Assembly (NCBI RefSeq): GCF_004365705.1
Contig: NZ_SOBN01000001.1
Span: 434,001 to 498,000 of the forward strand
Direction: 5' to 3'
DNA from: Streptomyces sp. 846.5
GTDB lineage: Bacteria > Actinomycetota > Actinomycetes > Streptomycetales > Streptomycetaceae
DNA length: 64,000 bases
Shown here: positions 43,014-63,066 of the stretch, piece after piece
Layout of the letters: each line of letters opens with the position of its first letter
Position numbering within the stretch: position 1 is the stretch's first letter
Program-made: the position numbers and the translations under genes
The notes under the pieces: model-generated
The model's input: the letters and a program-made list of their open reading frames with translations, nothing else
The model's database searches: none
What the model was told of the DNA's origin: nothing

Positions 43014-44045
43014 CTACCCGGACGCCGGCGGACGGGCCGTGGTGCCCCGGACGACCAACTGGGGCCGCAGCAGCACCTCGCGGTCGGCCACCGGCTCGCC
43101 GTCGAGTCGGGCGATGGCCCGCTGCACCGCCAACGCCGCCAGTGTGCCGGTGTCCTGACTGACCGTCGTCAGCCGCAGGTAGGGCAGGCGGGCGATCTGG
43201 CTGTCGTCGTAACCGACGACGGACAGCGTGTCGGGGACCGCGATCCCCCGGCGGGCGAAGACGTCCAACAGCCCTACCGCGCTGCGGTCGTTGTAGCTGA
43301 TGACCGCGTCCGGCAGGCCCTGGTCGGCCAGTTGGTCCGCCGCTGCGGCGCCGTCCTCCTCGCGCTCGCCGGCGGCGACCGTCCGGGCCTGGTCGCCGAG
43401 CCCGCGGGACTTCATCGCCGCGCGGTACCCGTTGCGCCGGACCGCCGCGCCGGGGGCCCGGCCGCCGTCCACATGCACGATGCGGCGGTGCCCGAGTTCG
43501 GCCAGATGGTCGACCGCGATCCGCATCCCGTGGGCGTCCGCCGCCCGGACGACGTCGACGGCCGGATGGGTGGACGGCTGGCCGACCACGACCACCGTCA
43601 GCTGCTCGGCCAGTGCTCCGAGCGCGGCCCGCGGCACCAGTGCGCCGACCAGGATCACCGCCTCGCAGCGGTACGACAGCAGCGCGTCCACGGCCTGCCG
43701 CGGCGAGCGCGTGCCGGTGATCGCGCTCAGCACCACCTGGTAGCCGTGCGGCTCCGCCGCCGCGTAGACGCCCTCGGCGACGTCTGCGTGGAACGGGTTG
43801 TTGAGCGCCAGGGTGACGCCCAGCAGCCGGGTCCTGCGACCCGCGAGCAGGCGGGCGCGCCCGTCCGGCCGGTAACCCATCTCCTCGGCGGCGGCGAGGA
43901 CCCGCTCCCGCGTCGCCTGGCTGGCGCCGGCCACGTCGCGCATCACGATGGAGACCAGCGCCCGGGACACCCCCACCCGGGCCGCCACGTCCTCCAGCGT
44001 CGGCGCTCGCCCGGCCCGGGGCGGCCGGGTCGGTTCCTGCGGCAT
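43014..44045 (-). CDS. LacI-family repressor next to iolE-like gene
   Basis: 343 residues from the ATG at 44045; the frame extends to 44075 without homology. HTH TLEDVAARVGVSRALVSIVMRDVAGASQATRERVLAAAEEMGYRPD with the hinge helix ARLLAGRRTRLLGV, then a periplasmic-binding-like effector domain (LGVTLALNNPFHADVAEGVYAAAEPHGYQVVLS, NDRSAVGLLDVFARRGIAVPDTLSVVGYDDS), all read in parts. Divergent from the iolE-like gene; its cognate palindrome CTAGAGCGCTCTAG lies between. Effector likely inositol or a breakdown product. Confidence 0.88.
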   Translation of the reverse strand: MPQEPTRPPRAGRAPTLEDVAARVGVSRALVSIVMRDVAGASQATRERVLAAAEEMGYRPDGRARLLAGRRTRLLGVTLALNNPFHADVAEGVYAAAEPHGYQVVLSAITGTRSPRQAVDALLSYRCEAVILVGALVPRAALGALAEQLTVVVVGQPSTHPAVDVVRAADAHGMRIAVDHLAELGHRRIVHVDGGRAPGAAVRRNGYRAAMKSRGLGDQARTVAAGEREEDGAAAADQLADQGLPDAVISYNDRSAVGLLDVFARRGIAVPDTLSVVGYDDSQIARLPYLRLTTVSQDTGTLAALAVQRAIARLDGEPVADREVLLRPQLVVRGTTARPPASG

Positions 44046-44074
44046 CTGACGCCTTCCCACTGCTTCCCAAAGCA

Positions 44075-44103
44075 TTGACTGCGGCGGCCGAGTCTACGAT
44101 AGT
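44075..44103 (+). promoter_or_regulatory. Promoter of iolE-like gene
   Basis: TTGACT, 17-bp spacer, GATAGT. A LacI-type operator begins 8 bp after the -10, at the expected start of transcription. Confidence 0.5.
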
Positions 44104-50126: not shown

Positions 50127-51106
50127 GATGCGGATCCTTCGTGGGCGTGGTGGCCGGACAGCATCGTCTCGATCTCGGCCAGGGTGGGCATGGCGTCGGC
50201 GCAGGCGAGGCGCGACGCGACGATCGCGCCGGCCGCGTTGGCGTAGTGGGCGCAGCGCTCGGGCTCCCAGCCGGAGAGCAGCCCGTGGATGAGCGCGCCG
50301 CCGAAGGCGTCGCCCGCGCCCAGGCCGCAGACCACCTCGACGCGCTGCGGCGCGACGGTGGTCATGCCGTCCGGTGTGGCGACCAGGACGCCCTCGGCGC
50401 CCATCTTCACCAGGGCGAGTTCGACACCCCGGTCGAGCAGTCGGCGGGCGGCCTCGACCGGGTCGGCGGTGCCGACGGCCACCTCCACCTCGGCCCGGTT
50501 GCCGACCACGACGGTGACCTGTTCGAGCATCCGCTGGTACTCGCGGCGGGCGTCCTCCGGGGAGGGCCAGAACATCGGGCGCCAGTCCAGGTCGAGCACC
50601 GTCCAGCGGCCCTCGGCCGAGTCCGGGCGGCCCCGGTGGGCGAGCAGCTGCAGCTGGGTCTGCCGGGCCGGCTCGACCGAGACTCCGGTGCCGGTGACCC
50701 AGAGCAGCGGAACCTCCGCGACCAGGTCCCAGGGCACGTCGGCCCAGGTGAGCGTCAAGTCCGGGGCGGTGGGCAGCCGGTAGAACAGCAGCGGCGGGTC
50801 CTCCGGAGGGTTCAGCTCGCAGAACACGACGGGGGTCAGCAGGTCCGCGGCCGTTCCGACATGGCGGGCGTCGACGCCGAAGGCGGTGAGGGCGTCGCGC
50901 ACATAGTCGCCGAAGGCGTCGGGGCCGACCTTGGTGAGCACCGCCGTCGCGTGGCCGAGCCTGGCGGCGCCGACCGCGACATTGGTGGCGGTGCCGCCGA
51001 GGGATCTGGCGAAGGTCGTGACCTGCGCCAGCGGCACGCCCGCCTGCTGCGGGTACAGGTCCACACCGACCCGGCCGACGGTCAGCGCCTGCACATCGGA
51101 GGTCAT
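50123..51106 (-). CDS. iolC: 5-dehydro-2-deoxygluconokinase
   Basis: 327 residues. PfkB fold: LTVGRVGVDLYPQQAGVPLAQVTTFARSLGGTATNVAVGAARLG (in parts), the inositol-type segment VLDLDWRPMFWPSPEDAR shared by IolC proteins, and the C-terminal CGLGAGDAFGGALIHGLL with the catalytic Asp. Phosphorylates 5-dehydro-2-deoxygluconate. Stop and start overlaps of 4 nt with iolG upstream and the aldolase-like gene downstream. Confidence 0.9.
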   Translation of the reverse strand: MTSDVQALTVGRVGVDLYPQQAGVPLAQVTTFARSLGGTATNVAVGAARLGHATAVLTKVGPDAFGDYVRDALTAFGVDARHVGTAADLLTPVVFCELNPPEDPPLLFYRLPTAPDLTLTWADVPWDLVAEVPLLWVTGTGVSVEPARQTQLQLLAHRGRPDSAEGRWTVLDLDWRPMFWPSPEDARREYQRMLEQVTVVVGNRAEVEVAVGTADPVEAARRLLDRGVELALVKMGAEGVLVATPDGMTTVAPQRVEVVCGLGAGDAFGGALIHGLLSGWEPERCAHYANAAGAIVASRLACADAMPTLAEIETMLSGHHAHEGSAS

Positions 51107-52104
51107 CGGTACAGCTCCGGCCGGTCGCGCAGGGACACGGTCTGCGGCAGGCCGCTGTCCAGCGCCCGGACGCCCGCCGCGGCGACCGCGGTGGCGGCGT
51201 AGCCGTCCCAGGCCGACGCTCCGCGCGCCGGGGCGCCGGCGGCGACGCCGTCGATCCAGTCCTGCAACTCGCGGCGGTAGGCCTCGGCGAACCGGGGGCG
51301 CCAGTCAGCGGGAACGCCCCGGGAGACCTGGCCGGCGCTTCGGCGTACCGTCGGCGCGGGCGAGTCCAGCAGTACTGTGCCCTCCTCGGCGACCAGTTCG
51401 CAGCGCACCTCGTAGCCGTAGCCGGCGGTGACGAAGACCTCCACGTCGATGAGCACGCCCTCGGCCGAGGAGAACACCAGGAACAGCGGATCCTGGGTGC
51501 CGCCGGATCGGGCCGAGGCGCGCGGGCGGTGCACCGTGACGGTGTCGATCTCGTCCCGCAGCAGCCAGCGGGCGATGTCGATCTCATGCACCGCCGAGCC
51601 CGTGATCAGCATGGCGGTGGGTGTGCCGCCGGGACCGGCGTTGCGGTGGACGCAGTGCATCGCCAGCGGCCGGCCGATGTCTCCGCCGTCCACCGCGGCC
51701 TTGATGTCCAGGTAGCCGGGGTCGTAGCGGCGCATGAAGCCGACCGTGACCAGCCTGCGGCCCACATCCTGCTCGGCGTCGAGAATGCGCAGGCAGCCGT
51801 CCAGGTCGGCCGCGAGGGGCTTCTCGCAGAGGACGGGCTTTCCCGCGGCGAGGCAGGCCAGCACGAACTGCTCATGGGTCGGGTCGGAGGAGGCGATCAG
51901 CACGGCGTCCACCCGGTCGTCCGCGATCAGCTGCAGCGGGTCGTCGAAGACCCGGGCCCCGTAAGCCTTGGCGACCGTGCGGGCCTGTTCGGGGTCGTAG
52001 TCGGCGACCGCGGTGACCTCGCTCCCCGAGACGACCCGGCTCAGCAGCCGGGCATGCTCGGCGCCCATCACCCCGACGCCGATCACGCCGATCCGGACTG
52101 GCAT
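51103..52104 (-). CDS. iolG: Inositol 2-dehydrogenase-type Gfo/Idh/MocA oxidoreductase
   Basis: 333 residues, GAGGAG before the ATG. RIGVIGVGVMGAEHARLLSRVVSGSEVTAVADYD cofactor motif, CEKPLAADLDG with the catalytic Lys, VGFMRRYDPGYLDIKAAVDGGDIGRPLAMHCVHRN and VHEIDIARWLLRDEI with the His-x3-D pair, as in myo-inositol 2-dehydrogenases. First gene of the operon; oxidises inositol to inosose with NAD. Promoter lies in the 183-bp gap to the GntR-SBP regulator. Confidence 0.87.
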   Translation of the reverse strand: MPVRIGVIGVGVMGAEHARLLSRVVSGSEVTAVADYDPEQARTVAKAYGARVFDDPLQLIADDRVDAVLIASSDPTHEQFVLACLAAGKPVLCEKPLAADLDGCLRILDAEQDVGRRLVTVGFMRRYDPGYLDIKAAVDGGDIGRPLAMHCVHRNAGPGGTPTAMLITGSAVHEIDIARWLLRDEIDTVTVHRPRASARSGGTQDPLFLVFSSAEGVLIDVEVFVTAGYGYEVRCELVAEEGTVLLDSPAPTVRRSAGQVSRGVPADWRPRFAEAYRRELQDWIDGVAAGAPARGASAWDGYAATAVAAAGVRALDSGLPQTVSLRDRPELYR

Positions 52105-52174
52105 TGCTACTCCTCGCTGATCCTCTGGACGGTCTTCCGGGCGTTGGCCCTCGACAGCGGTTCGAGTGACAATA

Positions 52175-52183
52175 ATGGCAAAT
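52175..52183. promoter_or_regulatory. ATGGCAAAT half-site between iolG and GntR-SBP gene
   Basis: The 9-mer ATGGCAAAT is identical to one arm of the perfect palindrome before the alpha-mannosidase (53754-53779). It lies in an AT-rich patch 71 bp upstream of iolG, where a -10 region would be expected. Confidence 0.45.
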
Positions 52184-52287
52184 AAGTGCCCGCGGAAGTG
52201 CCGTCCCACAGCCGCCCCCTGCATCCGCCCGCCCGCCTGTCCTACGCTGCCACCTGGCGAGCCCCGCCCCAGCGACCGAGGAGACCG

Positions 52288-53718
52288 ATGCCGCCGCTCC
52301 AACCGACAGCGCTGTTCCACCAGCTCAAGGCACGCCTGCTGGAGGACATCCGCAACGGGCGGTACGGCCCCGACGGCCGGCTCCCCACCGAGCACGAGCT
52401 CTGCGAGCTCTACGGGCTCAGCCGCACTCCGGTGACCCGGGCCCTGTCCGAGCTGGCCCAGGAGGGGGTGGTGCTGCGGCACCGGCGGCGCGGGACCTTC
52501 GTCAATCCGCAGTGGCTGGCGGGCAGCGGTGAGACCCCCCGGCTGCGTGTGCTCGCCACCGGCACCACCGGCCCCGACCAGCTCAGACGCGCGGCGGGCG
52601 ACTGGGCCCGGCTCGACCTGGAGACGGTGGAGCTCCCCGAGCTGCACGACGCGTTCCTGCGCGCCGTCGCCGAGGGCCGCGGCCCCGACCTGGCGGTGCT
52701 CGACTCGGTCTGGGTGCCCGAGTTCGCCCGCGCCGGGTTCCTCACCCCGCTGACCGACCTCGACCCGGACTGGATCAAGGACGAGCACGACACCGACTTC
52801 CTCCAGCCCTTCCGCGACGCCTACCGCTTCGACGGCGCACTGGTCGCCGTCCAGGCCCCGTCCGACGTCACCGGCCTGTGGTACCGCCGGGACTCCCTGG
52901 CGCGCCTGGGCACCGAACCGCCCAGGACCTGGCGCGAGCTGCACGCCCTCGGCCGGCGCCTGGCCGAGGACTGCACCGGCGACGCCCATGCGCTGGCCCT
53001 GCCCGGGGGCCGCGCCGCCGCCGAGACCACGACCTACGCCCTGCTGGCGCTGCTGGCCGCCAACGGCGCCGGCGCCGTGCTGCGTGACGACGCCGTGGTG
53101 CTGGACAGCCCGGCGGCCGTGGAGACCATGCGCTTCCTGCGCCGCCTGGTGGACGAGGGCGTGGTCTCCCCCGAGGTCGTCGGCCACGCCAAGGACCAGG
53201 CTGTCCGGCTGCTGGCGCAGGGCCGGGCCGACCTGTGCGTCGGCGCCAGCTACCAGGCCGGCGACCTCGCCGAGGAGTCCGGGCTGCCGCTGGCCCGGGT
53301 GCACGAGCGCTTCGGCTTCGCGCCGATGCCGCGCGGACCGCACGGACGCTCGTCGGCGCTGTGCGGGGGGATGGCCTACCTGGTGCCGCGTCAGGCGAGG
53401 TATCCGCAGCAGGCGATGCGCTTGCTGCGGGCCGCGGTCGAACCGGACGCCCTGGTCCGGACCTGCCTGCTGACCGGGCAGCTGCCGCCGCGCCGCTCGG
53501 CCCTGGACGCCGTCTCGGCGGTCTCGCCCTTCCACGCCGAGACCGCGCCACTGCTGGCCGGAGCGGTGCTGCGCCCGTCGACCCCGGTGTATGCGCTGGT
53601 GTCGACACGGCTGCAGTCGCTCGCCGAGGACGTGATCACCCGCCGGCTCGGCCCGGCACCGGCGGTGGCCCGGGCCGGGGACACCATCAGCGTGATCACG
53701 GGGCTGCCCGAGCGCTGA
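52288..53718 (+). CDS. GntR-type DNA-binding domain fused to ABC solute-binding domain
   Basis: 476 residues, GAGGAG upstream. Residues about 8-75 are a GntR winged HTH: LFHQLKARLLEDIRNGRYGPDGRLPTEHELCELYGLSRTPVTRALSELAQEGVVLRHRRRGTFV, read in parts. Residues 85-476 are a bacterial extracellular solute-binding (SBP type 1) fold with LTDLDPDWIKDEHDTDFL, VAVQAPSDVTGLWYRRDSLARLG, PRTWRELHALGRRL and CGGMAYLVPRQARYPQQA. No signal peptide or lipobox, so it is cytoplasmic: a one-component regulator using a sugar-binding protein as sensor. The UTRA or FCD domain of ordinary GntR proteins is absent. Probably controls iolG operon and mannosidase. Confidence 0.85.
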   Translation: MPPLQPTALFHQLKARLLEDIRNGRYGPDGRLPTEHELCELYGLSRTPVTRALSELAQEGVVLRHRRRGTFVNPQWLAGSGETPRLRVLATGTTGPDQLRRAAGDWARLDLETVELPELHDAFLRAVAEGRGPDLAVLDSVWVPEFARAGFLTPLTDLDPDWIKDEHDTDFLQPFRDAYRFDGALVAVQAPSDVTGLWYRRDSLARLGTEPPRTWRELHALGRRLAEDCTGDAHALALPGGRAAAETTTYALLALLAANGAGAVLRDDAVVLDSPAAVETMRFLRRLVDEGVVSPEVVGHAKDQAVRLLAQGRADLCVGASYQAGDLAEESGLPLARVHERFGFAPMPRGPHGRSSALCGGMAYLVPRQARYPQQAMRLLRAAVEPDALVRTCLLTGQLPPRRSALDAVSAVSPFHAETAPLLAGAVLRPSTPVYALVSTRLQSLAEDVITRRLGPAPAVARAGDTISVITGLPER

Positions 53719-53727
53719 GAACAGATC

Positions 53728-53779
53728 TTGACATGCGGGCGGATCTCCCTGCACATTTGCCATCTCTGAATGGCAAATG
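53728..53779 (+). promoter_or_regulatory. Promoter and operator of alpha-mannosidase gene
   Basis: TTGACA at 53728-53733, with CACATT about 18 bp downstream as a possible -10. Overlapping and following it is CATTTGCCAT (53754-53763), 6 bp, ATGGCAAATG (53770-53779), perfect 10-bp arms. This is a classical repressor-over-promoter layout 14 bp ahead of the ATG. Confidence 0.7.
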
Positions 53780-53793
53780 CTGAGAGGCCGCCC

Positions 53794-56700
53794 ATGCGCA
53801 TCCGCACCGTCGACTCCACCGATCTGTTCCTCGGCCCCGCGCAGGCGCCGCGGCAGGTGGTACGGGTCACCCTCGTGGCCGGAGACCGAGGGGTGGCCGG
53901 ACCGGTACGGGTGCGCGTCGAGGGTCCGACCGTCACCACCCCGGTCGTCGAGACGGTGACCGGACTCGCCCCCGGCGAGGAGCGGGTGGTGGAGGTCGGG
54001 GTGCGGATCGCCGCCCCGCACAGCGAGGGCTCGGTGCACCGGGTGACCGCCGTGGCCGAGTCCGGCCAACCGCACGCCGCCGAACTGCACTCGACCGGCC
54101 TGCGGGCCACCGCGGAAGCGCGGATCGAGGCGGCCGCCACCGGCTGGACCATGTGGATGGTCTCCCACTTCCACTACGACCCGGTCTGGTGGAACACCCA
54201 GGCGGGCTTCACCGACCAGTGGCACCGGCTGCCCGATCTCCCCTGGGTGGCCGAGATGCGACTTCCCCATGTGCGGACCGCGTTCGACCTGGTCCGGGCC
54301 CATCTGGAGGCCGCCCGGCACGACCCCGACTACCGCTTCGTGCTGGCCGAGGCGGACTACCTCAAGCCGCACTGGGACGTCTTCCCCCGCGACCGCGCCG
54401 ACCTGCGCCGCTTCCTCAGGGAGGACCGGGTGGAGCTGGTCGGCGGCAACTACAACGAGCCCAACACCAACCTCACCCACCCCGAGTCCACGGTCCGCAA
54501 CGCGATCCACGGCATCGGCCTGCAGCGCGACGTGGTCGGCGGCGACCCGCGCTCGGCCTGGATGGTCGACGTCTTCGGCCACGACCCCTCGTACCCCGGA
54601 CTGATGGCCGACGCCGGACTCGACTCCTCCGCCTGGGCGCGGGGCCCGTTCCACATGCACGGGCCCCGCACGCACACCGGGGACATGACCCGGATGCAGT
54701 TCCCCAGCGAGTTCGAGTGGATCTCCCCCACCGGGCGGGGCGTGCTGACCCACTACATGGCCGGGCACTACACCGCCGGCTGGGCCCTGGAGCGCGTCTC
54801 CTCCGCCGAGGAGTCGATGGCGCGGGCCTACGAGCAGTTCAGCCGGCTCAAGCAGGTCGCCGCCACCCGCAATGTGATGCTCCCGGTCGGCCACGACCAC
54901 AACGTCCCCTCCCGCTGGTGCACCGTCGTGCACCGGGAGTGGGCCAAGCGCTACGTCTGGCCGCGTTTCGCCGTCGGCCTGCCCCGGGAGTTCTTCGGCG
55001 CCGTCCGGCAGGAGCTGGCCGAACGGGGCACCTCGCTCAGCCCGCAGACCCGCGACATGAACCCGGTCTACACCGGCAAGGACGTCTCCTACATCGACAC
55101 CAAGCAGGCCCAGCGGGCCGGCGAGGTGGCGGTGCTGGACGCCGAGCGGCTGGCCACCCTGGCGTCCCTGGTGGGCACCGACGCCGCGCCACGCCCCCGC
55201 TTCCCCGTCGAGGCGCTGGACAAGGCCTGGCGCCAACTGCTGTACGGGGCCCACCACGACGCCATCACCGGCACCGAGTCCGACCAGGTGTACCTGGACC
55301 TGCTGGGCGGCTGGCGGGAGGCCTTCGAGCTGGGCTCGGCGGTGCGCGACGCGGCCGTCGACCACCTGGCCGCCTGCGTGGACACCCGCGGCGGCGGACG
55401 GGCCGTGCTGGTCGTCAACCCGCTGTCGTGGACCCGCGACGCCATCGCCAGAGTCCGCCTGACGTACCCTCAGCCGGGCACCCCTGGGGTCGCGATCCAC
55501 GACACCGGCGGCTCCCCGGTCACCGCGCTGGCCGAGGGCGTACGGCGCCACCCGGACGGCACCCTGGCCGAGGTCACCCTCAGTTTCCTCGCCCGCGACC
55601 TCCCCTCGGTTGGCCACCGCCTGTACCGGGTGCTCGACAGCGCCGAAATCCCGGCCGGCTGGACTGCACGAACCGGACTGCGGCACGCGGAGAACGCCGC
55701 CTTCCGGATCGAGGCCGACCCGGCCCGGGGCGGAGCCCTGGACCGCATCCTCGACCGCCGAACCGGCCGGGAGCTGCTGCGCCCCGGCGCCCTCGGCGCC
55801 GAACTGCTGGTCCAGGACGAGCACCAGGACCACCCGCAGTGGAAGGAGGGCCCCTGGCACCTCCTGCCCAAGGGCCCCGGCCGCGCGGCGGGCGCACGGC
55901 CGGCCGAGGTACGCGTGGACGAGGGCCCGCTGGGTCAGCGCCTCGTCTCCACCGTCCGGATCGGCGAGGTGACGCTCACTCAGGAGGCCTACCTCTGGCA
56001 CGGTGTGGACCGCATCGACTTCCGCACCCAGGTCGACGGCTCGCTCGACAAGGAGCGCCTGCTGCGGGTCCGCTTCGGCCTGGACCTGCCCGGCGCGCTG
56101 CCGGTGGCCGAAGTGGGCTACGCCGTCGTCGGACGGTCCTTCGGCTTCCCGCAGTCCGACGCCTCCCCGCACCTGTGGGCGCTGGACAGCCCCGCGCACA
56201 CCTGGGCCGGGCTGAGCGCCACCGCCAGGATCGCCCTGCACGGTCCGAACGGCTCCCGGCAGGACCACGCCATCGGCATCGCCGAGGTGGTGGCACCCGA
56301 GGGCGGCGCGCACGCCGGAGAGGTCCGGGCGCTCCTGGTCCGGCTGGCCGGTCAGGGAGTGACCGCCACCTGCACCACGCCGGGCGGCCACCGCTACGGC
56401 TCGCTGGAGGTCGACTCCAACCTCCCGGACGTGCGGATCGTGCTCGGCGCGGACAACGCCTTCGCCGAAGCGGTCCTGAACGCGGTCGAGCCCGCCCAGC
56501 GCTGGGCCTACTGCGGCGAACTGGCCCGCGCCGGGCGGGTCTTCGTCCCGGCCGCCACCGCGCGCCGGGAGGCCTGGGTGCCCGACGCGGACCTGTGCGG
56601 GCCGCGCGACCTGCCAGTGCTGATCGTCTCCGGGCCCGAGGGTGAACTCGCTGACGCGATCGGCGCTTTGGCCGCCGACCTCGCCGACGGCGTCATCGAC

Positions 56701-58152
56701 GTGTCGCTGACCGCTGAACTGCCCGGCACCGCCGAGCCGTTCGAGGACTACTCGGCGGCCCTGCTCAACCGCGGCACCCCCGGCTTCGTTGCGGAGACCG
56801 ACGGCACGCTCTACCTCAACCTGATGCGGGCGCACACCGGTTGGCCCAGCGGCGTCTGGCTGGACGGCCCGAGGAGCACCGTCCCTGACGGCAGCAGCTT
56901 CTCCCAGCAGCACTGGACCCACACCTTCGACTACAGCCTGGTGGCCAGCCCCGGTGACTGGCGGCAGGCCGGATTCGTCCGCGCCGGGCAGGAGTTCAAC
57001 CACTCCCCCATCGCCCGCGAGACGGAAGAGCACGACGGAATCCTGCCGCCACGGGCGAGCCTGCTCTCAGTGGAACCCGCACAGGTCGTGCTGGCCGCCC
57101 TCAAGCCGCGCGGCAACCCGCGCGCCCCCGGCCTGCCGGACGCCTGCGACCCCGCGGACGGCGTGACGCTCCGACTGTACGAGTCCTCCGGGCAGCCTGC
57201 GGCGGCGCGGGTGCGCCTGCACGGCGGGCTGGTCGACCCGGCCCGCACCGACCTGCTGGAGGAGCGGGCAGTGCACGGCGCGCCGACCGAGCTCGACGGT
57301 GAGGTCACCCTCGGCCTGGCTCCCGCAGACGTGGCCACCCTGACCGGCCTCCCGGTCCTCGCGTCCCTGCTTGACCCCGAGACCCGCAGCGAGCCGTGGC
57401 GCGAGCCCGTCGAGCCGGTCTTCACCCGGTACTGGATGCACAACAAGGGACCCGCGCCGAGCGGCAACCTGCCGGTCACCGTGCATATCTCGCCGACCGC
57501 ACTGCGGCTGAACGCCGAGGCCGACAGTGCAGCACTGCAGATCACGGTCAGCTGCTCGGTACTGCCCGCGTCGGGAACGGTTACCCTGGACGTCCCCGAC
57601 GGCCTCGCCGTCGAACCGCATGACAGCCTCGACTACGACCTGGCCCCGGGCGGCTTCGCCGAGTTCGAGGTCTCCGTCCGAGCGGACGGCGGAGACCCCG
57701 GCACCTACTACCTGGGGGCCCGGATCCCGGACCATCTGGGCCAGTTGCTGGAGGACACAGTCGCCGTCGAGCTCGGGGCCACAGAGACGGACACCGACCA
57801 GGACTTCGTCCCCGTGCTCGGCGAACTCGGCCCACAAGGCCTGGCGCTGCCGCCCGGCGGCGAGGGCGACCTGCTGCTCCGGCTGACCGGCACGACACTC
57901 GGCGAGGTCCACGGCGAGGCCCAGCTGATCAGCCCGTACGGCACCTGGGGAGACGCCGCCGACCTCACCGTCACACCGTGGACCCAGCTCTTCACCGTCC
58001 CGGCGGGCAGCACGGCCGAGCTGCGCTTCCCCGTCCGTCTCGCCACGACTGCCCGTCCGGGCAACCGCAGTTGGGCCCTGGTGAAGCTGGCCTGCCACGG
58101 CACCGTCCGCTACACCCGAGCCGTACCGGTCGAGGTGGTCGACCGGCCTTGA
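53794..58152 (+). CDS. GH38 alpha-mannosidase, large form
   Basis: 1452 residues from the ATG at 53794 (GAGAGG upstream); the in-frame ATG at 53770 falls inside the operator. An N-terminal beta domain (1-110) precedes the GH38 core: VSHFHYDPVWW with zinc ligands H127 and D129, WMVDVFGHDPSYPGLM with nucleophile D259, and GAHHDAITGTESDQVY with ligand H488. Then the mannosidase middle and beta domains, and a C-terminal NEW3-like Ig domain (GTYYLGARIPDHLGQLLEDTVAVEL). No signal peptide, so cytoplasmic. Releases alpha-linked mannose from imported oligosaccharides. Longer than the usual 850 to 1050 residues. Confidence 0.9.
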   Translation: MRIRTVDSTDLFLGPAQAPRQVVRVTLVAGDRGVAGPVRVRVEGPTVTTPVVETVTGLAPGEERVVEVGVRIAAPHSEGSVHRVTAVAESGQPHAAELHSTGLRATAEARIEAAATGWTMWMVSHFHYDPVWWNTQAGFTDQWHRLPDLPWVAEMRLPHVRTAFDLVRAHLEAARHDPDYRFVLAEADYLKPHWDVFPRDRADLRRFLREDRVELVGGNYNEPNTNLTHPESTVRNAIHGIGLQRDVVGGDPRSAWMVDVFGHDPSYPGLMADAGLDSSAWARGPFHMHGPRTHTGDMTRMQFPSEFEWISPTGRGVLTHYMAGHYTAGWALERVSSAEESMARAYEQFSRLKQVAATRNVMLPVGHDHNVPSRWCTVVHREWAKRYVWPRFAVGLPREFFGAVRQELAERGTSLSPQTRDMNPVYTGKDVSYIDTKQAQRAGEVAVLDAERLATLASLVGTDAAPRPRFPVEALDKAWRQLLYGAHHDAITGTESDQVYLDLLGGWREAFELGSAVRDAAVDHLAACVDTRGGGRAVLVVNPLSWTRDAIARVRLTYPQPGTPGVAIHDTGGSPVTALAEGVRRHPDGTLAEVTLSFLARDLPSVGHRLYRVLDSAEIPAGWTARTGLRHAENAAFRIEADPARGGALDRILDRRTGRELLRPGALGAELLVQDEHQDHPQWKEGPWHLLPKGPGRAAGARPAEVRVDEGPLGQRLVSTVRIGEVTLTQEAYLWHGVDRIDFRTQVDGSLDKERLLRVRFGLDLPGALPVAEVGYAVVGRSFGFPQSDASPHLWALDSPAHTWAGLSATARIALHGPNGSRQDHAIGIAEVVAPEGGAHAGEVRALLVRLAGQGVTATCTTPGGHRYGSLEVDSNLPDVRIVLGADNAFAEAVLNAVEPAQRWAYCGELARAGRVFVPAATARREAWVPDADLCGPRDLPVLIVSGPEGELADAIGALAADLADGVIDVSLTAELPGTAEPFEDYSAALLNRGTPGFVAETDGTLYLNLMRAHTGWPSGVWLDGPRSTVPDGSSFSQQHWTHTFDYSLVASPGDWRQAGFVRAGQEFNHSPIARETEEHDGILPPRASLLSVEPAQVVLAALKPRGNPRAPGLPDACDPADGVTLRLYESSGQPAAARVRLHGGLVDPARTDLLEERAVHGAPTELDGEVTLGLAPADVATLTGLPVLASLLDPETRSEPWREPVEPVFTRYWMHNKGPAPSGNLPVTVHISPTALRLNAEADSAALQITVSCSVLPASGTVTLDVPDGLAVEPHDSLDYDLAPGGFAEFEVSVRADGGDPGTYYLGARIPDHLGQLLEDTVAVELGATETDTDQDFVPVLGELGPQGLALPPGGEGDLLLRLTGTTLGEVHGEAQLISPYGTWGDAADLTVTPWTQLFTVPAGSTAELRFPVRLATTARPGNRSWALVKLACHGTVRYTRAVPVEVVDRP

Positions 58153-58162
58153 CCATCGGGGC

Positions 58163-58954
58163 TCAACGGCCGTCGCTCACCAGGACCTGGTAGCGGCGGC
58201 CCACCGTCTGCCCCGGAGCGATCGCCAGCGGCCGCTCGAAGGCGAGAGCCGCGCCGACGCCGGGGTACTCGGCGATGCGGACGAACCAGCGGTCGTCGTC
58301 CTGCAGACCGCTGAAGGTCAGGGTGTAGGCGGCGTCCCCGGCACCGGCGGACACGGTCAGCGATGGCTGCGCCGATCCGTTGACCGCGTCCTCGGTGCGC
58401 AGCGGTCCGGCTGTGATCTGCGCGTCGGCGGACGGCGGGAGGCGCCAGAAGAACCCGCCGTAACCCGCGCCCTCCCCACGGCCGTTGGCGGCAGGGCTGC
58501 GCAGTTCGACGGGTGCGGCACCGGGGTTGGTCAGGGCGGTGGCCACGGTGAGCAGCCAACTTCGGCCGTCACCGATGTCCTCCGCGCGCAGGGTGCGCCG
58601 TTCCAGCAGCAGCGTCGCCCCGGTGCGGTCCGTCCAGCGCAGCTCCTCGTCCACCGCGTCGGCTGCCCGGCTGCGCCATCCGGTGTGCTCGATCCGGCCG
58701 TGGTCGTCCAACGGGACGTACCCCTGCCCGTGAACGTAGCTGCGGCCGCCCCAGAGGTTGGTCCCGGCCACGTCGGGCATGGCCAGGGACGCGCCCAGGT
58801 GCCAGCGGTGGTCCTCGGGCAGCAGGTCCGTCACGACAGTGCCGGCGAGGGTTCGCACCGGGTGCAGGTAGGGGCGGGGGACCAGGTCGGCCGCGAGGTC
58901 GGGGGCGATCACATAGTCGGCGACGGCATGCCGCCCCGCGTACAGGGTGATCAC
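58163..58954 (-). CDS. DUF6807 / PmoA-like protein
   Basis: 263 residues from the GTG at 58954, overlapping the upstream stop (GTGA). RPYLHPVRTLAGTVVTDLLPEDHRWHLGASLAMPDVAGTNLWGGRSYVHGQGYVPL (in parts) with several conserved His matches the family annotated DUF6807 or methane-oxygenase-PmoA-like. The name is historical and unrelated to methane oxidation. Members sit in sugar catabolic clusters with Gfo/Idh enzymes. Reaction unknown; a galactose-mutarotase-like beta sandwich is likely. Only 10 bp separate it from the converging mannosidase. Confidence 0.78.
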   Translation of the reverse strand: MITLYAGRHAVADYVIAPDLAADLVPRPYLHPVRTLAGTVVTDLLPEDHRWHLGASLAMPDVAGTNLWGGRSYVHGQGYVPLDDHGRIEHTGWRSRAADAVDEELRWTDRTGATLLLERRTLRAEDIGDGRSWLLTVATALTNPGAAPVELRSPAANGRGEGAGYGGFFWRLPPSADAQITAGPLRTEDAVNGSAQPSLTVSAGAGDAAYTLTFSGLQDDDRWFVRIAEYPGVGAALAFERPLAIAPGQTVGRRYQVLVSDGR

Positions 58955-60972
58955 TTCGCGGGCCCCCTCTCCGCAACGGTGAGCTGCAGCACGGGTTCGC
59001 CACGTTCGTCTCCGGCAGGATGGCCGATCAGCGCGGTGAAGTGGGGAGTGCGTACCAGCACACCCTGCTCCACCGACTCGGCCGTCACCCGGAACGGGCC
59101 GCCCTCCGCATCCTCGGCGGGACCGTAGCTCAGCGCGAACACGGCGAGGCCGGGCGGCGCTTCCGAGCCGAGCGGGTGGACGAGCACCTGGTTGGTCTGC
59201 GTGACGCGCCGCCAGCCGCTGTCCGGGTTGCCGTATCCGCGCGGGTCGTCGGCGAGCGCGAACGCCACCTGCTCCTGGGTCAGCCCGATCGTCTCCGGGC
59301 TGTTGAAGTGCGTCCGTCCCGCCGGCGGGTTGACCACCTGCAGACCAGCCGCAGCGGTGACGGCCATACCCCCCGCCAGCAGCGACCCCGCGCCCACCTC
59401 CAGGACCGCGCCCGGCCGTCCCAGGTCGAACGACGCGCCGCCCGGCTCGGACACGGCCACGATCTTGCGCTGCCGCTCGCCCTCGGCCTCGGCCTCGACG
59501 TAGGGCAGACCGGCGAGGAAGGCGAGTTCGGCGTCAGCGGGCAGGGGCGCACGGTCGAGTACCGCGACGACATGGATCCGCTCACCGTCGGAGACGTACA
59601 ACTGCTGCACTGCCAGCAGCACCTGATCGCGCGTCACCACCGCCTTGGTCACCAGCTTCGCGGCGAGCCCGGCAACGGACGCGTCGCGACTGCGCATCGG
59701 GCCGAGCGGGCGGGTGAGCAGCAGTGAGCGGCCGTCGGCATAGCGCACGACCGGCCCGATCCCGTGCTGGTGATCGGTGATCGACTCGATCACCACCGTT
59801 CCGCCCGCATCGATCTGATAGGGCGTCAATTCCTCGGTGAGTGAGACCGACGCCTTCCCGTGCCGCAGTGAGTACGGCGTGTGGTGCGGCACGTCGGCGC
59901 CCCGGTACCACTCGCCGTCGTCCTGCCAGAGCCACACGCTGGCGAAGGCGAAGTGCCCGCTGGGCGCCCCGGTCGCGGCGAGGGGGTAGTAGGAGACCCG
60001 CCGGTCGCCGAGGTAGCGGCCGAGGTCGGCGCGGATGTGCCGGCTGAAGAAGCGCAGGCCGAGCATGCCTTCGGAGCCGCAGTGCTGCTCGCTGTAGCGC
60101 GGGCCGCCGAAGTCGAACCCGCGGGCGGAGAGCCGGCATTCCAGGTGCCGTGCGATCTGCTCGCCGTCGTCGAGGAAGCACTGCTCTCTGCTGACGCGGT
60201 GGGCCTGCGCCAGGAAGGTCAGCGAGATCGGCACGTAGTTCTGGTCGTGTCCGGCACCGTGTTCCAGCGGCAGCAGAAAGCCCCGGTCGGGTACCCGGGC
60301 CGGCCGGATCACCTCGCTGTAGAGCGCCATGGCCTCCCCGGCGATCCGCTCCCCCTCCTTCTCCCGGTGCACGCCGCGCAGATGCCGTCCCAGCATCAGA
60401 CCGCCGGCCACCGCGCCGATCGCCTGGTTGGCGGTCTGCTGCGGGTTGAACAGGCTGACCTGGGTCAGCCAGCGCCAGTAGCCGACGGCGGTCTCGGTCA
60501 GTTCGGCGTACTGGCCCTCGGTCAGCAGTCCGCTGCCCAGCTCCAGCACATTGACCGCATGCAGCATGGCCCAGACCGTGCTCGGCCAGTCGCCGAAGGG
60601 GTGCTCGCCCGTCGCGGGCACATAGCGGGCGTAGGCTTCGCCGCTGTTGCGGATCCGGAGGAACGCCTCGCCGGGGTTGTCCGTCCGGAACACCCGGTGG
60701 GCCAGGAAGTAGTCCATGCTCCGCCGGACCGCGTCCACGAGCTCGGCGTCCCTGCGGTGGCCCCGGTGCCAGGCCAGACACAGCAAAGACGTCACGCCCA
60801 ACGACATGTCACCGATGTCGTCGTCGGCCGCCGGGTCCTCGAAGTTGCCGTCCGGCTGCTGGTGCAGCATCGCGGCGGCGACCGCGCCGTCCAGCACGGT
60901 CCTGAGACGGTCCGCGTCGACGGGCAGGTCGTGCACGGCAGCGTGCTGGCTCGGCAGGTACACCGGGTTCAT
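58951..60972 (-). CDS. 673-residue protein, probable carbohydrate-active enzyme of unknown family
   Basis: ATG at 60972 with GAGAGGGA upstream; the longer frame to 61131 overlaps the dehydrogenase. The N-terminal 330 residues look like an (alpha/alpha) toroid: MLHQQPDGNFEDPAADDDIGDMSLGVTSLLCLAWHRGHR, FGDWPSTVWAMLHAVNVLELG, HGAGHDQNYVPISLTFLAQAHR (in parts). The rest is beta-rich with YLGDRRVSYYPLAATGAPSGHFAFASVWLWQDDGEWYRGADVPHH. That arrangement resembles heparinase II/III-type lyases and GH88/105-like hydrolases, but I cannot assign a family. No signal peptide. Genuinely unassigned component of the sugar cassette. Confidence 0.7.
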   Translation of the reverse strand: MNPVYLPSQHAAVHDLPVDADRLRTVLDGAVAAAMLHQQPDGNFEDPAADDDIGDMSLGVTSLLCLAWHRGHRRDAELVDAVRRSMDYFLAHRVFRTDNPGEAFLRIRNSGEAYARYVPATGEHPFGDWPSTVWAMLHAVNVLELGSGLLTEGQYAELTETAVGYWRWLTQVSLFNPQQTANQAIGAVAGGLMLGRHLRGVHREKEGERIAGEAMALYSEVIRPARVPDRGFLLPLEHGAGHDQNYVPISLTFLAQAHRVSREQCFLDDGEQIARHLECRLSARGFDFGGPRYSEQHCGSEGMLGLRFFSRHIRADLGRYLGDRRVSYYPLAATGAPSGHFAFASVWLWQDDGEWYRGADVPHHTPYSLRHGKASVSLTEELTPYQIDAGGTVVIESITDHQHGIGPVVRYADGRSLLLTRPLGPMRSRDASVAGLAAKLVTKAVVTRDQVLLAVQQLYVSDGERIHVVAVLDRAPLPADAELAFLAGLPYVEAEAEGERQRKIVAVSEPGGASFDLGRPGAVLEVGAGSLLAGGMAVTAAAGLQVVNPPAGRTHFNSPETIGLTQEQVAFALADDPRGYGNPDSGWRRVTQTNQVLVHPLGSEAPPGLAVFALSYGPAEDAEGGPFRVTAESVEQGVLVRTPHFTALIGHPAGDERGEPVLQLTVAERGPAK

Positions 60973-61000
60973 GGGTCCGGTCCCTCTCAGGTCGTCGAGA

Positions 61001-62161
61001 TCAGGTCGTCGGGAAGTCCGGCCCGGTCCATTCCAGGTCCAGTCGGGAGAACAGCAGACCGCGCGCACCGGCTTGGACCACCGCGTCCTCGATACCCACG
61101 ATGGTCCGGCCCTCCGGCGAGGCGCGCACAAACGGCTCGGGGACGGACCGTGCCGCAGGCCCGCGCTGGATCGCCTCCAGCACCTCGGTGAAGGTACGGG
61201 TGGCGCGCAGCGGGCTGCACAGCACGTCCTCGGCCGGGTCGTCGTCCAGGTGCGCGATCAGGTCGTCGAGCAGGTCGATCCGCCCGCCGGTGGTGTCCAC
61301 CGGTCCGGCCCCGGTGTGCAGCCGCAGCCGGTCCTGGGTGTAGTGCAGGGTGGCCCGGCCGCCGGTGCCGAAGACCTCGACGTAGGGCTCGAACTCCTGC
61401 CGCGCGCACAGGGTCACCGCGGCGGTCACCGGAACTCCGCCGCTCGTCTCGATCCGCGCGCTGATCGTGTCGTCGGTCTCGATGGGGTGGGCGTGGTAGG
61501 GCTCGACCGCGACCGTGCTGACCGGCCCGCCGTCACCGGCCGCAGCCAGACGCAGTGCGAGCGCCAGCCCGTGCGCGAACGGATTGGTCAGTGCGCCGTC
61601 CGCCACCACGACGTCGCCGAGCCTGCGATGGCCGGCCCAGGCCGAGCGGGCGTAGTAGTCCGCGTCCCGTCGCCAGGCGCCGACGACGCTGATCCGCTCA
61701 ATCCGGCCGAGTTCACCGGCTTGTACCCGGTCGAGCAGGTCCCGGGCCACGAAGGAGCCGAACGCCTGGAAGCCCACCTGGCAGTGCCGCCGCTCGGAGT
61801 CGGCCACCGAGACCAGCCGGTCGTGCTCGGCCACCGCGGTCACCGGCGGCTTCTCCAGCAGCACATGTGCTCCGAGCCGCATGGCCCGCTCGGCGAGCGC
61901 GGCGTGCGTGTGGATGGGCGTGGCGATGACGGCGATGTCCGGACGCAGCGCGTCCAGCAGTCGTTCTGCATCCGTGTCGAAGACCCGGCCCTCAGCGGTC
62001 CCGCTCTCCGGGCCGCTCGGTTCGCGTCGGTCGGCCAGACCGCACAGCGCGAGCCGGCCGGCCTGCTCGCGGGAGAGCAGGCCCTCCAGATGCACCCGGC
62101 CGTGGCCGTGGATCCCGATCAGCACCACGCGGGGCACGTCCGCTCGGGAAGCGCCGCCCAT
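61001..62161 (-). CDS. Gfo/Idh/MocA-family oxidoreductase
   Basis: 386 residues. RVVLIGIHGHGRVHLEGLL (GxHGxG variant of the Rossmann motif), VIATPIHTHAALAERAMRLGAHVLLEKPPVTAVAEH with catalytic Lys in EKPP, VGFQAFGSFVARDLLDRVQAGELGRIERISVVGAWRRDADYYARSAWAGHRRLGDVVVADGALTNPFAHGLALAL (in parts) with the terminal His, and the C-terminal domain. NAD(P)-dependent oxidation of a sugar or cyclitol. TGATG overlap with the kinase upstream. Confidence 0.85.
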   Translation of the reverse strand: MGGASRADVPRVVLIGIHGHGRVHLEGLLSREQAGRLALCGLADRREPSGPESGTAEGRVFDTDAERLLDALRPDIAVIATPIHTHAALAERAMRLGAHVLLEKPPVTAVAEHDRLVSVADSERRHCQVGFQAFGSFVARDLLDRVQAGELGRIERISVVGAWRRDADYYARSAWAGHRRLGDVVVADGALTNPFAHGLALALRLAAAGDGGPVSTVAVEPYHAHPIETDDTISARIETSGGVPVTAAVTLCARQEFEPYVEVFGTGGRATLHYTQDRLRLHTGAGPVDTTGGRIDLLDDLIAHLDDDPAEDVLCSPLRATRTFTEVLEAIQRGPAARSVPEPFVRASPEGRTIVGIEDAVVQAGARGLLFSRLDLEWTGPDFPTT

Positions 62162-63066
62162 CAGGTCACCGCCAGTCGCTCGGTGAGCCGCAGCGCACCG
62201 TGCACCGGGGCGGTGTCCAGGGGGTGGACCAGCGTGTCCGGCAGGGCGGCGCCCAACTGCCGGACGAAGGAGTCGAAGAGCGGGGGCTGGTTGAGGATGA
62301 CCCCGCCGGCCACGACCACGTCGTCGACCGCCACGTCACGGGCGGCCATCCGGACCACGAGTTGGGCCAGCGCGCCCGCCGCGTCCTCCACGACCACCTC
62401 GGCGAGAGCGGAACCCTGTTCGAGCGCGTCGAACACCAGCGGGGCGCGCCGGCCCCAGACGCTGGCGCCGGAGTCGGCCGCCATCGCCTCGGGCAGGTCG
62501 GTGACCTCCGCCACCTCGAAGGAGCGCAGCAGCAGGTCGGTCAGCAGGTCCTGCGGTTCGCCGCGGTCGCGGGCGCCGAGGCTGGCCCGCACCGCCTCGC
62601 GCAGCAGCCCGGGGGCGCTGCCCTCGTCACCGAAAAGCCAGCCCCAGCCTCCTATGTACACGGGTTCGCCGGAGCGGTTCCGGCCGACGGCGACCGAGCC
62701 GGTTCCGGCCACCAGGCCGACACCGGCGGACAGGCCGACCGCAGGGATGAGTAGTTCGGCGTCATTGAGCACCAGGCACGGGACGGGCAGCAGTCGCTCC
62801 AGTTCGGCCCGCACACCCGCGCAGTCACGTTCGCTGTCGCAGCCGTGCGCGCCGACGGCGACCGCCGAGACGGTCGTCGCCGGAGGCAGCGTCTGCCCGA
62901 TCAGATCTGCCAGGAAGGCCGCGGCCCGGCGGAAGTCGCCGGGGTGCCAGCCCTCGCTGGAGTACACCCGGTCGGCGATGACCGTCGACCCGAGCGCAGC
63001 GCGGATGTGCGTCTTGGTGCCGCCGACGTCGATCCCGACTCGGACGTCGGAGATCAGGTCCGGCAC
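62161..63066 (-). CDS. BadF/BadG/BcrA/BcrD-type ATPase, GlcNAc kinase-like
   Basis: 301 residues from the GTG at 63066, AGAGGA upstream. DVRVGIDVGGTKTHIRAALG phosphate 1 motif, VAVGAHGCDSE, LNDAELLIPAVGLSAGVGLVAGTGSVAVGRN (phosphate 2 with catalytic Asp), GGWGWLFGDEGSAPGLLREAVRASL and the adenosine motif VVVAGGVILNQPPLFDSFV. This is the eukaryote-like N-acetylglucosamine kinase group, so an amino sugar is the probable substrate. First gene of the four-gene cassette, divergent from the ROK regulator. Confidence 0.85.
   Translation of the reverse strand: MPDLISDVRVGIDVGGTKTHIRAALGSTVIADRVYSSEGWHPGDFRRAAAFLADLIGQTLPPATTVSAVAVGAHGCDSERDCAGVRAELERLLPVPCLVLNDAELLIPAVGLSAGVGLVAGTGSVAVGRNRSGEPVYIGGWGWLFGDEGSAPGLLREAVRASLGARDRGEPQDLLTDLLLRSFEVAEVTDLPEAMAADSGASVWGRRAPLVFDALEQGSALAEVVVEDAAGALAQLVVRMAARDVAVDDVVVAGGVILNQPPLFDSFVRQLGAALPDTLVHPLDTAPVHGALRLTERLAVT

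Follow-up and report, generated by a model that had tools for sequence, protein, structure and literature searches.

Which signal does a GntR-type regulator sense when its effector domain resembles the sugar-binding subunit of an ABC importer, and which promoter does it control when its gene lies between an iolG-like gene and the gene of a GH38 alpha-mannosidase-like enzyme? The question is raised by a 476-aa protein encoded in the window, i.e. the whole 64-kb stretch of DNA analyzed here. A preliminary description had proposed that this protein binds a mannoside or an inositol compound in the cytoplasm and controls both the mannosidase and the iol operon. The relevant features of the window are:

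51103–52104, minus strand: iolG-like inositol dehydrogenase, first gene of the iol operon and divergent neighbor of the regulator (NF052679, 347 bits, below the cut-off of 540)
52166–52183, no strand assigned: half-site ATGGCAAAT, an exact 9-mer preceded by the degenerate direct repeat GTGACAATA, located between iolG and the regulator gene
52288–53718, plus strand: GntR–SBP one-component regulator, 476 aa, ATG start, intact ORF
52321–52503, plus strand: codons of the GntR winged HTH (residues 12–72; Pfam PF00392)
52534–53709, plus strand: codons of the CUT1-type solute-binding effector domain (residues ~83–474; structural match)
53729–53758, plus strand: probable GH38 promoter with TTGACA (-35), 18 bp and CACATT (-10), read from the sequence
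53754–53779, no strand assigned: putative operator palindrome CATTTGCCAT-CTCTGA-ATGGCAAATG, a perfect inverted repeat with 10-bp arms
53794–58152, plus strand: GH38 alpha-mannosidase-like enzyme without evident signal peptide, the likely target (Glyco_hydro_38N/C, Alpha-mann_mid)

The computed domain make-up confirms that a GntR HTH is joined to a signal-less SBP domain. The Pfam model PF00392 covers residues 12–72 with 72.8 bits (cut-off 27) and places the protein in the GntR family, and the search against SBP families that had been recommended returned SBP_bac_1 (PF01547, residues 114–388, 91.2 bits, cut-off 26) as well as SBP_bac_8 (77.6 bits). The NCBIfam matches, all below the curated cut-offs, are HutC-like first for the HTH part and MalE-like for the sugar-binding part, and the HTH of NagR/YvoA is the PDB match for the DNA-binding domain. 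The FCD, UTRA, SgrR-type HTH and SBP_bac_5 models of Pfam do not match the regulator at an E value of 0.01, and neither Peripla_BP nor aminotransferase-like Pfam models were found in it. An AlphaFold2 model based on a 12-sequence alignment reached a mean pLDDT of 89.4 and a pTM of 0.78; its residues 83–472 superimpose on alpha-glycoside-binding proteins with a Z of ~44 (6j9w, 6jaq, 1eu8) and form a full-length bilobed SBP fold. “SBP type 1” is the Pfam label, and judged by the modeled fold the effector domain is of the CUT1 alpha-glycoside-binding type. Neither a signal peptide nor a lipobox was seen on reading the sequence. The solute-binding domain should be cytoplasmic, because the protein starts directly with its HTH. 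The absence of an export signal and the neighborhood of iolG and GH38 instead of permeases distinguish the protein from an ABC importer component, and the Pfam domains, the model and the fold match support a cytoplasmic one-component GntR–SBP regulator.

Full-length relatives with 39–53% identity are rare and occur in ~1% of the sampled genomes. Among the genomes sampled, 2 of 200 from the family, 5 of 396 from the phylum and 3 of 395 from the class gave a match, and each of these counts includes the genome of the window itself; a species-level genome set contributed five relatives, of which one is from Chloroflexota. This is the single Chloroflexota record, and the remaining relatives belong to Actinomycetota. 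A wide E-value gap separates the full-length relatives from ordinary importer SBPs. A looser scan of the phylum for distant fusions returned, at E values of 1e-21 to 1e-119, only SBP-region matches without HTH, and the plasmids and viral contigs yielded ordinary importer SBPs or nothing. The 12 fused domains cluster together in the SBP-domain tree (support 96/93; the group is recovered in 97% of 200 bootstrap trees), and a single fusion event is therefore the simplest history of the sampled sequences. The locus L003 and the match in genome G460 (L020) are each located on a 9679-base contig and are probably one locus; L020 was accordingly left out of the 11 ortholog loci. The contig G087:C1 harbors an ortholog locus twice (L009, L010), on opposite strands and each ~125 kb from the contig end, as expected for a long terminal inverted repeat.

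The perfect palindrome just downstream of the regulator, already recognized in the preliminary description, is the sole perfect copy in the 9.03-Mb genome, whose next best match differs at three positions. It stops 14 bp upstream of the GH38 start codon and represents the only match in the window with up to three mismatches, compared with none in 100 shuffles. The -10 hexamer of the probable GH38 promoter overlaps its left arm. A strict sigma-70 scan called no promoter in the window because this hexamer matches the consensus at only 3 of 6 positions. The suggested scan of the whole genome recovered the palindrome, with 38 matches at up to three mismatches versus 26 for the reversed motif, and it is uninformative beyond the GH38 promoter with respect to a wider regulon. 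The genome contains no other full operator with at most one mismatch, and the regulon would therefore essentially consist of one promoter.

The orthologs provide the evidence that this palindrome belongs to the regulator. An 18-letter pattern, ATTTGYCAY-N6-RTGRCAAAT, was drawn from the site in the window and the one in Arthrobacter pascens (L006; ATTTGTCAC-TACGCA-GTGACAAAT) and is the best match in most ortholog loci. The same geometry is found in 9 of the 11 ortholog loci in promoter regions of the regulator’s neighborhood, mostly ahead of genes for CUT1 importers or glycosidases and in many cases across the -10 region. A symmetric weight matrix was applied in leave-one-out scans. All ten loci with a site in a promoter region (window, L003–L007, L026–L029) had this site in first place, at 18–31 bits and with p values from 3e-3 to 5e-7; these p values are somewhat optimistic because the sites had been picked for their high scores. 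Apart from the window and L006, the loci of this set, eight in number, had contributed nothing to the initial pattern, and one site in L027 had been seen beforehand. The motif obtained from the orthologs placed the palindrome of the window first in 20 kb, with 28.4 bits versus 7.0 for the next site. The conserved sites and these scans thus support the palindrome as the predicted operator of the GntR–SBP regulator.

Most ortholog sites fit TTTGTCAY-N6-RTGACAAA, corresponding to GT-N12-AC, and the site in the window has GC...GC at these positions. The left arm is preceded at ~19–23 bp by a TTGACA or TTGACG in the window, L004, L006, L007, L027 and L028 and therefore falls on or beside the -10 hexamer; the operator of L026 is positioned still further downstream. 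The leave-one-out scans revealed no recognizable operator near the related orthologs L030 and L031. In place of a CUT1 operon, these two regulators have as neighbors a quinone-oxidoreductase-like gene and an ABC system whose SBP is large; both signal and site may have changed. Two tandem operator-like sites, 25 bp apart, are present in a single divergent promoter region of L003 (5702–5750). The recognition-helix position equivalent to residue 50 of the regulator in the window is occupied by Asn or His in proteins with TTTGTC sites and by Thr or Gly in the window, L003 and L005, whose sites include TTTGCC or TTGCC half-sites; this correlation is based on few cases and is only a hint.

The palindrome follows the regulator and not the mannosidase. 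It is absent at GH38 orthologs with 58–61% identity, four such control loci without regulator were negative in the leave-one-out scans, and no ortholog of the regulator was found beside these GH38 genes. The expected conservation upstream of orthologous mannosidases was accordingly not observed, but this comparison was misdirected because no regulator ortholog adjoins those genes, and it leaves the operator unrefuted. The palindrome might instead belong to another regulator, e.g. a ROK or LacI protein, with the GntR–SBP gene merely adjacent. A ROK-like regulator is indeed present in the GH38 clusters of two related genomes (L080, L081), but the motif tracks the GntR–SBP gene in nine ortholog loci from two phyla, ahead of different enzymes, and is missing at GH38 loci without regulator, which makes such an ownership highly improbable. 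The region downstream of GH38 in the window (58163–63066) harbors minus-strand genes for a DUF6807 protein, a 709-aa protein matched by neither Pfam nor NCBIfam, a Gfo/Idh/MocA oxidoreductase and a BadF/NagK-like kinase. Of these, the 709-aa protein and the kinase are also encoded in L080 and L081, together with GH38, an ABC importer and the ROK-like regulator.

Because the putative operator tracks the orthologs and is absent at GH38 loci lacking the regulator, the GntR–SBP protein is a likely repressor of the GH38 promoter. We propose that it is a cytoplasmic one-component repressor whose GntR winged helix would bind as a dimer to the 24–26 bp palindrome; there, across the -10/start region of the GH38 promoter, the bound protein would block transcription. 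The C-terminal CUT1-type domain is predicted to close around an alpha-glycoside taken up by the cell (in the likeliest case an alpha-mannoside such as mannosylglycerate, or a small glycoside related to it) and thereby to shift the HTHs and release the operator. The intracellular GH38 enzyme would then be made only when its substrate is present. We assign a probability of about 0.7 to this explanation as a whole. The placement of an operator arm on or beside the -10 hexamer argues for repression. Activation, or a dual role, by a protein that is active when ligand-bound has a precedent in SgrR, an HTH–SBP_bac_5 protein that activates sgrS (PMC4021124), but the overlap of the operator with the -10/start region of the target promoters and the still more downstream site of L026 render it improbable. 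The proposed control of the mannosidase is accordingly likely at the GH38 promoter of the window, but it does not reflect a conserved partnership, as none of the orthologs adjoins a GH38 gene.

The second proposed target is the iol operon. The iolG gene is divergently oriented across a gap of 183 bp, and the recurrence of the 9-mer in this gap was verified: the exact ATGGCAAAT occurs three times in the 64 kb, namely in the two arms of the palindrome and at 52175–52183. The probability of a third copy at this place by chance is ~1e-4 to 4e-4, as calculated from the base composition. The sequence of the half-site region on the other strand is ATTTGCCATTATTGTCAC. The exact half-site with its degenerate direct repeat and the divergent iolG would be compatible with a regulator that governs the iol operon together with GH38 and senses inositol or mannosyl-inositol. 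However, the iolG side contains a half-site only and no palindrome, the iol operon adjoins none of the orthologs, the half-site may serve autoregulation instead, and a LacI-type regulator at the far end of the iol cluster (43014–44075) could serve these genes. Joint control of both targets in response to inositol is thus unlikely and the link of the regulator to the iol genes appears weak. Neither the regulation of the iol operon nor an inositol or mannosyl-inositol ligand, both part of the preliminary description, is supported by the comparison; the neighbors of the orthologs point instead to alpha-glycosides of the mannosyl- or glucosylglycerate type.

The gene content of the ortholog loci offers an indication of the ligand. 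No ABC importer adjoins the regulator in the window, unlike in most orthologs. The gene order SBP–permease–permease–C-N hydrolase is common to L004, L005, L006 and L026, and the SBPs of these importers cluster in the tree. Their C-N hydrolase belongs to the nitrilase superfamily, and its substrate is perhaps an amide such as a glycosylglyceramide. A GH63 enzyme resembling glucosylglycerate hydrolase is encoded in L003, L006 and L027, with 675 bits in L006 compared with an equivalog cut-off of 550 and lower scores in the other two. In L006, the operator precedes the importer with the C-N hydrolase and not the one with the glucosylglycerate hydrolase. Further neighbors are a glycerate kinase in L027, a sucrose-phosphorylase-like GH13 in L005, a GH125 alpha-mannosidase in L026 and a glycosyltransferase weakly similar to mannosylglucosylglycerate synthase in L029. 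Neither an iol operon nor GH38 was found in the ortholog loci, and L005 contains only distant Gfo/Idh/MocA oxidoreductases. Uptake and cleavage of small alpha-glycosides appears to be the common theme of these loci, with glycosylglycerates as the best single guess. The mannosylglycerate hydrolase of E. coli belongs to GH38; the enzyme in the window is a partial match to the corresponding model NF007331, far below its cut-off, and no glucosylglycerate hydrolase above the cut-off was detected in the host genome. The identity of the ligand in the host organism is the most speculative part of our proposal.

ABC solute-binding proteins recognize a very wide range of sugars, and many of their structures have been solved. 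A profile alignment to TMBP and MalE3 places the sugar-contact Asp/Arg positions of these proteins at D139, D193 and R402 of the regulator. D139 and R402 are invariant among the relatives and D193 is nearly so, whereas the pocket Trp in the GGW motif of trehalose/maltose binders is replaced by an invariant Met (GGM). Reading the ligand off the pocket residues alone was rejected: known binders have other residues at the aromatic positions, so that structures of trehalose/maltose binders do not reveal it. The conserved Asp/Arg positions make a glycoside the likely ligand, and the exchange of Trp for Met indicates that it is probably not maltose or trehalose. The replacement of several aromatic residues might also be taken as a sign that the domain has ceased to bind ligands and serves dimerization only. 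This is very unlikely given that relatives from two phyla, at 39–53% identity, all retain the acidic and Arg pocket positions as well as many glycines, and that the domain is complete and confidently modeled.

GntR regulators are classified by their C-terminal domain as FadR, HutC, MocR, YtrA, AraR and PlmA (PMC4494728), and the effector domain of the GntR–SBP protein fits none of the five subfamilies checked (FadR, HutC, MocR, YtrA and AraR). It lacks the FCD domain of FadR, it has an SBP domain in place of the aminotransferase-like domain of MocR, and its C-terminal part of ~390 aa differs from the short one of YtrA (~50 aa). PlmA is a cyanobacterial subfamily near YtrA and MocR, and the relatives of our regulator are all from Actinomycetota or Chloroflexota. 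The HTH is closest to the HutC type (NagR/YvoA, TreR, HutC), which comprises sugar operon repressors, but the UTRA domain of HutC is missing, and HutC sites mostly read GT-N4-AC (PMC4494728) compared with GT-N12-AC at the orthologs. A search of the accessible literature for a regulator combining GntR with SBP_bac_1 found no description, an absence that is not in itself proof.

We tentatively envisage, at somewhat less than even odds, that a CUT1 alpha-glycoside-binding protein was captured once, long ago, and founded a further effector class of GntR regulators. Its members would be cytoplasmic inducer sensors for compatible-solute glycosides (mannosyl- or glucosylglycerate or their amides), the wide GT-N12-AC operator would be set by the dimer geometry of the new domain, and the regulator of the window would have been retargeted from importer operons to GH38. 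If the ligand is mannosyl- or glucosylglycerate, the protein would represent a regulator for the actinobacterial use of these compatible solutes. The predicted operator comes with the regulator and makes DNA binding and ligand response directly testable.

The nearest known systems in concept are AraR and SgrR. AraR of Bacillus subtilis, which controls sugar uptake and use as a one-component regulator, likewise combines a GntR winged HTH with a bilobed sugar-binding domain (PMC4494728), but its effector domain is of the GalR/LacI type and not a CUT1 ABC-importer SBP domain (SBP_bac_1/8). SgrR and DsvR from enterobacteria and Vibrio share the N-terminal HTH and the cytoplasmic ABC-type solute-binding domain (PMC13060122); they differ in that this domain is SBP_bac_5 and that SgrR activates sgrS, whereas the GntR–SBP protein combines SBP_bac_1 with a GntR HTH, and its site is predicted to be that of a repressor. 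The CUT1 alpha-glycoside-binding proteins (6j9w, TMBP of T. litoralis 1eu8, MalE3 6dtq) correspond to the effector domain in their full fold (Z 43–44 over ~375 residues) and in the acidic and Arg pocket positions tested, but they are exported importer parts, and the regulator is predicted to be cytoplasmic, is fused to an HTH and has other aromatic pocket residues. The same design, a periplasmic binding protein linked to a DNA-binding domain, has been engineered in artificial chimeras (PMC6079105). The GntR–SBP proteins are natural and form one clade, and their wiring of a solute-binding protein to a DNA-binding domain represents evolution’s answer to the problem behind these chimeras.
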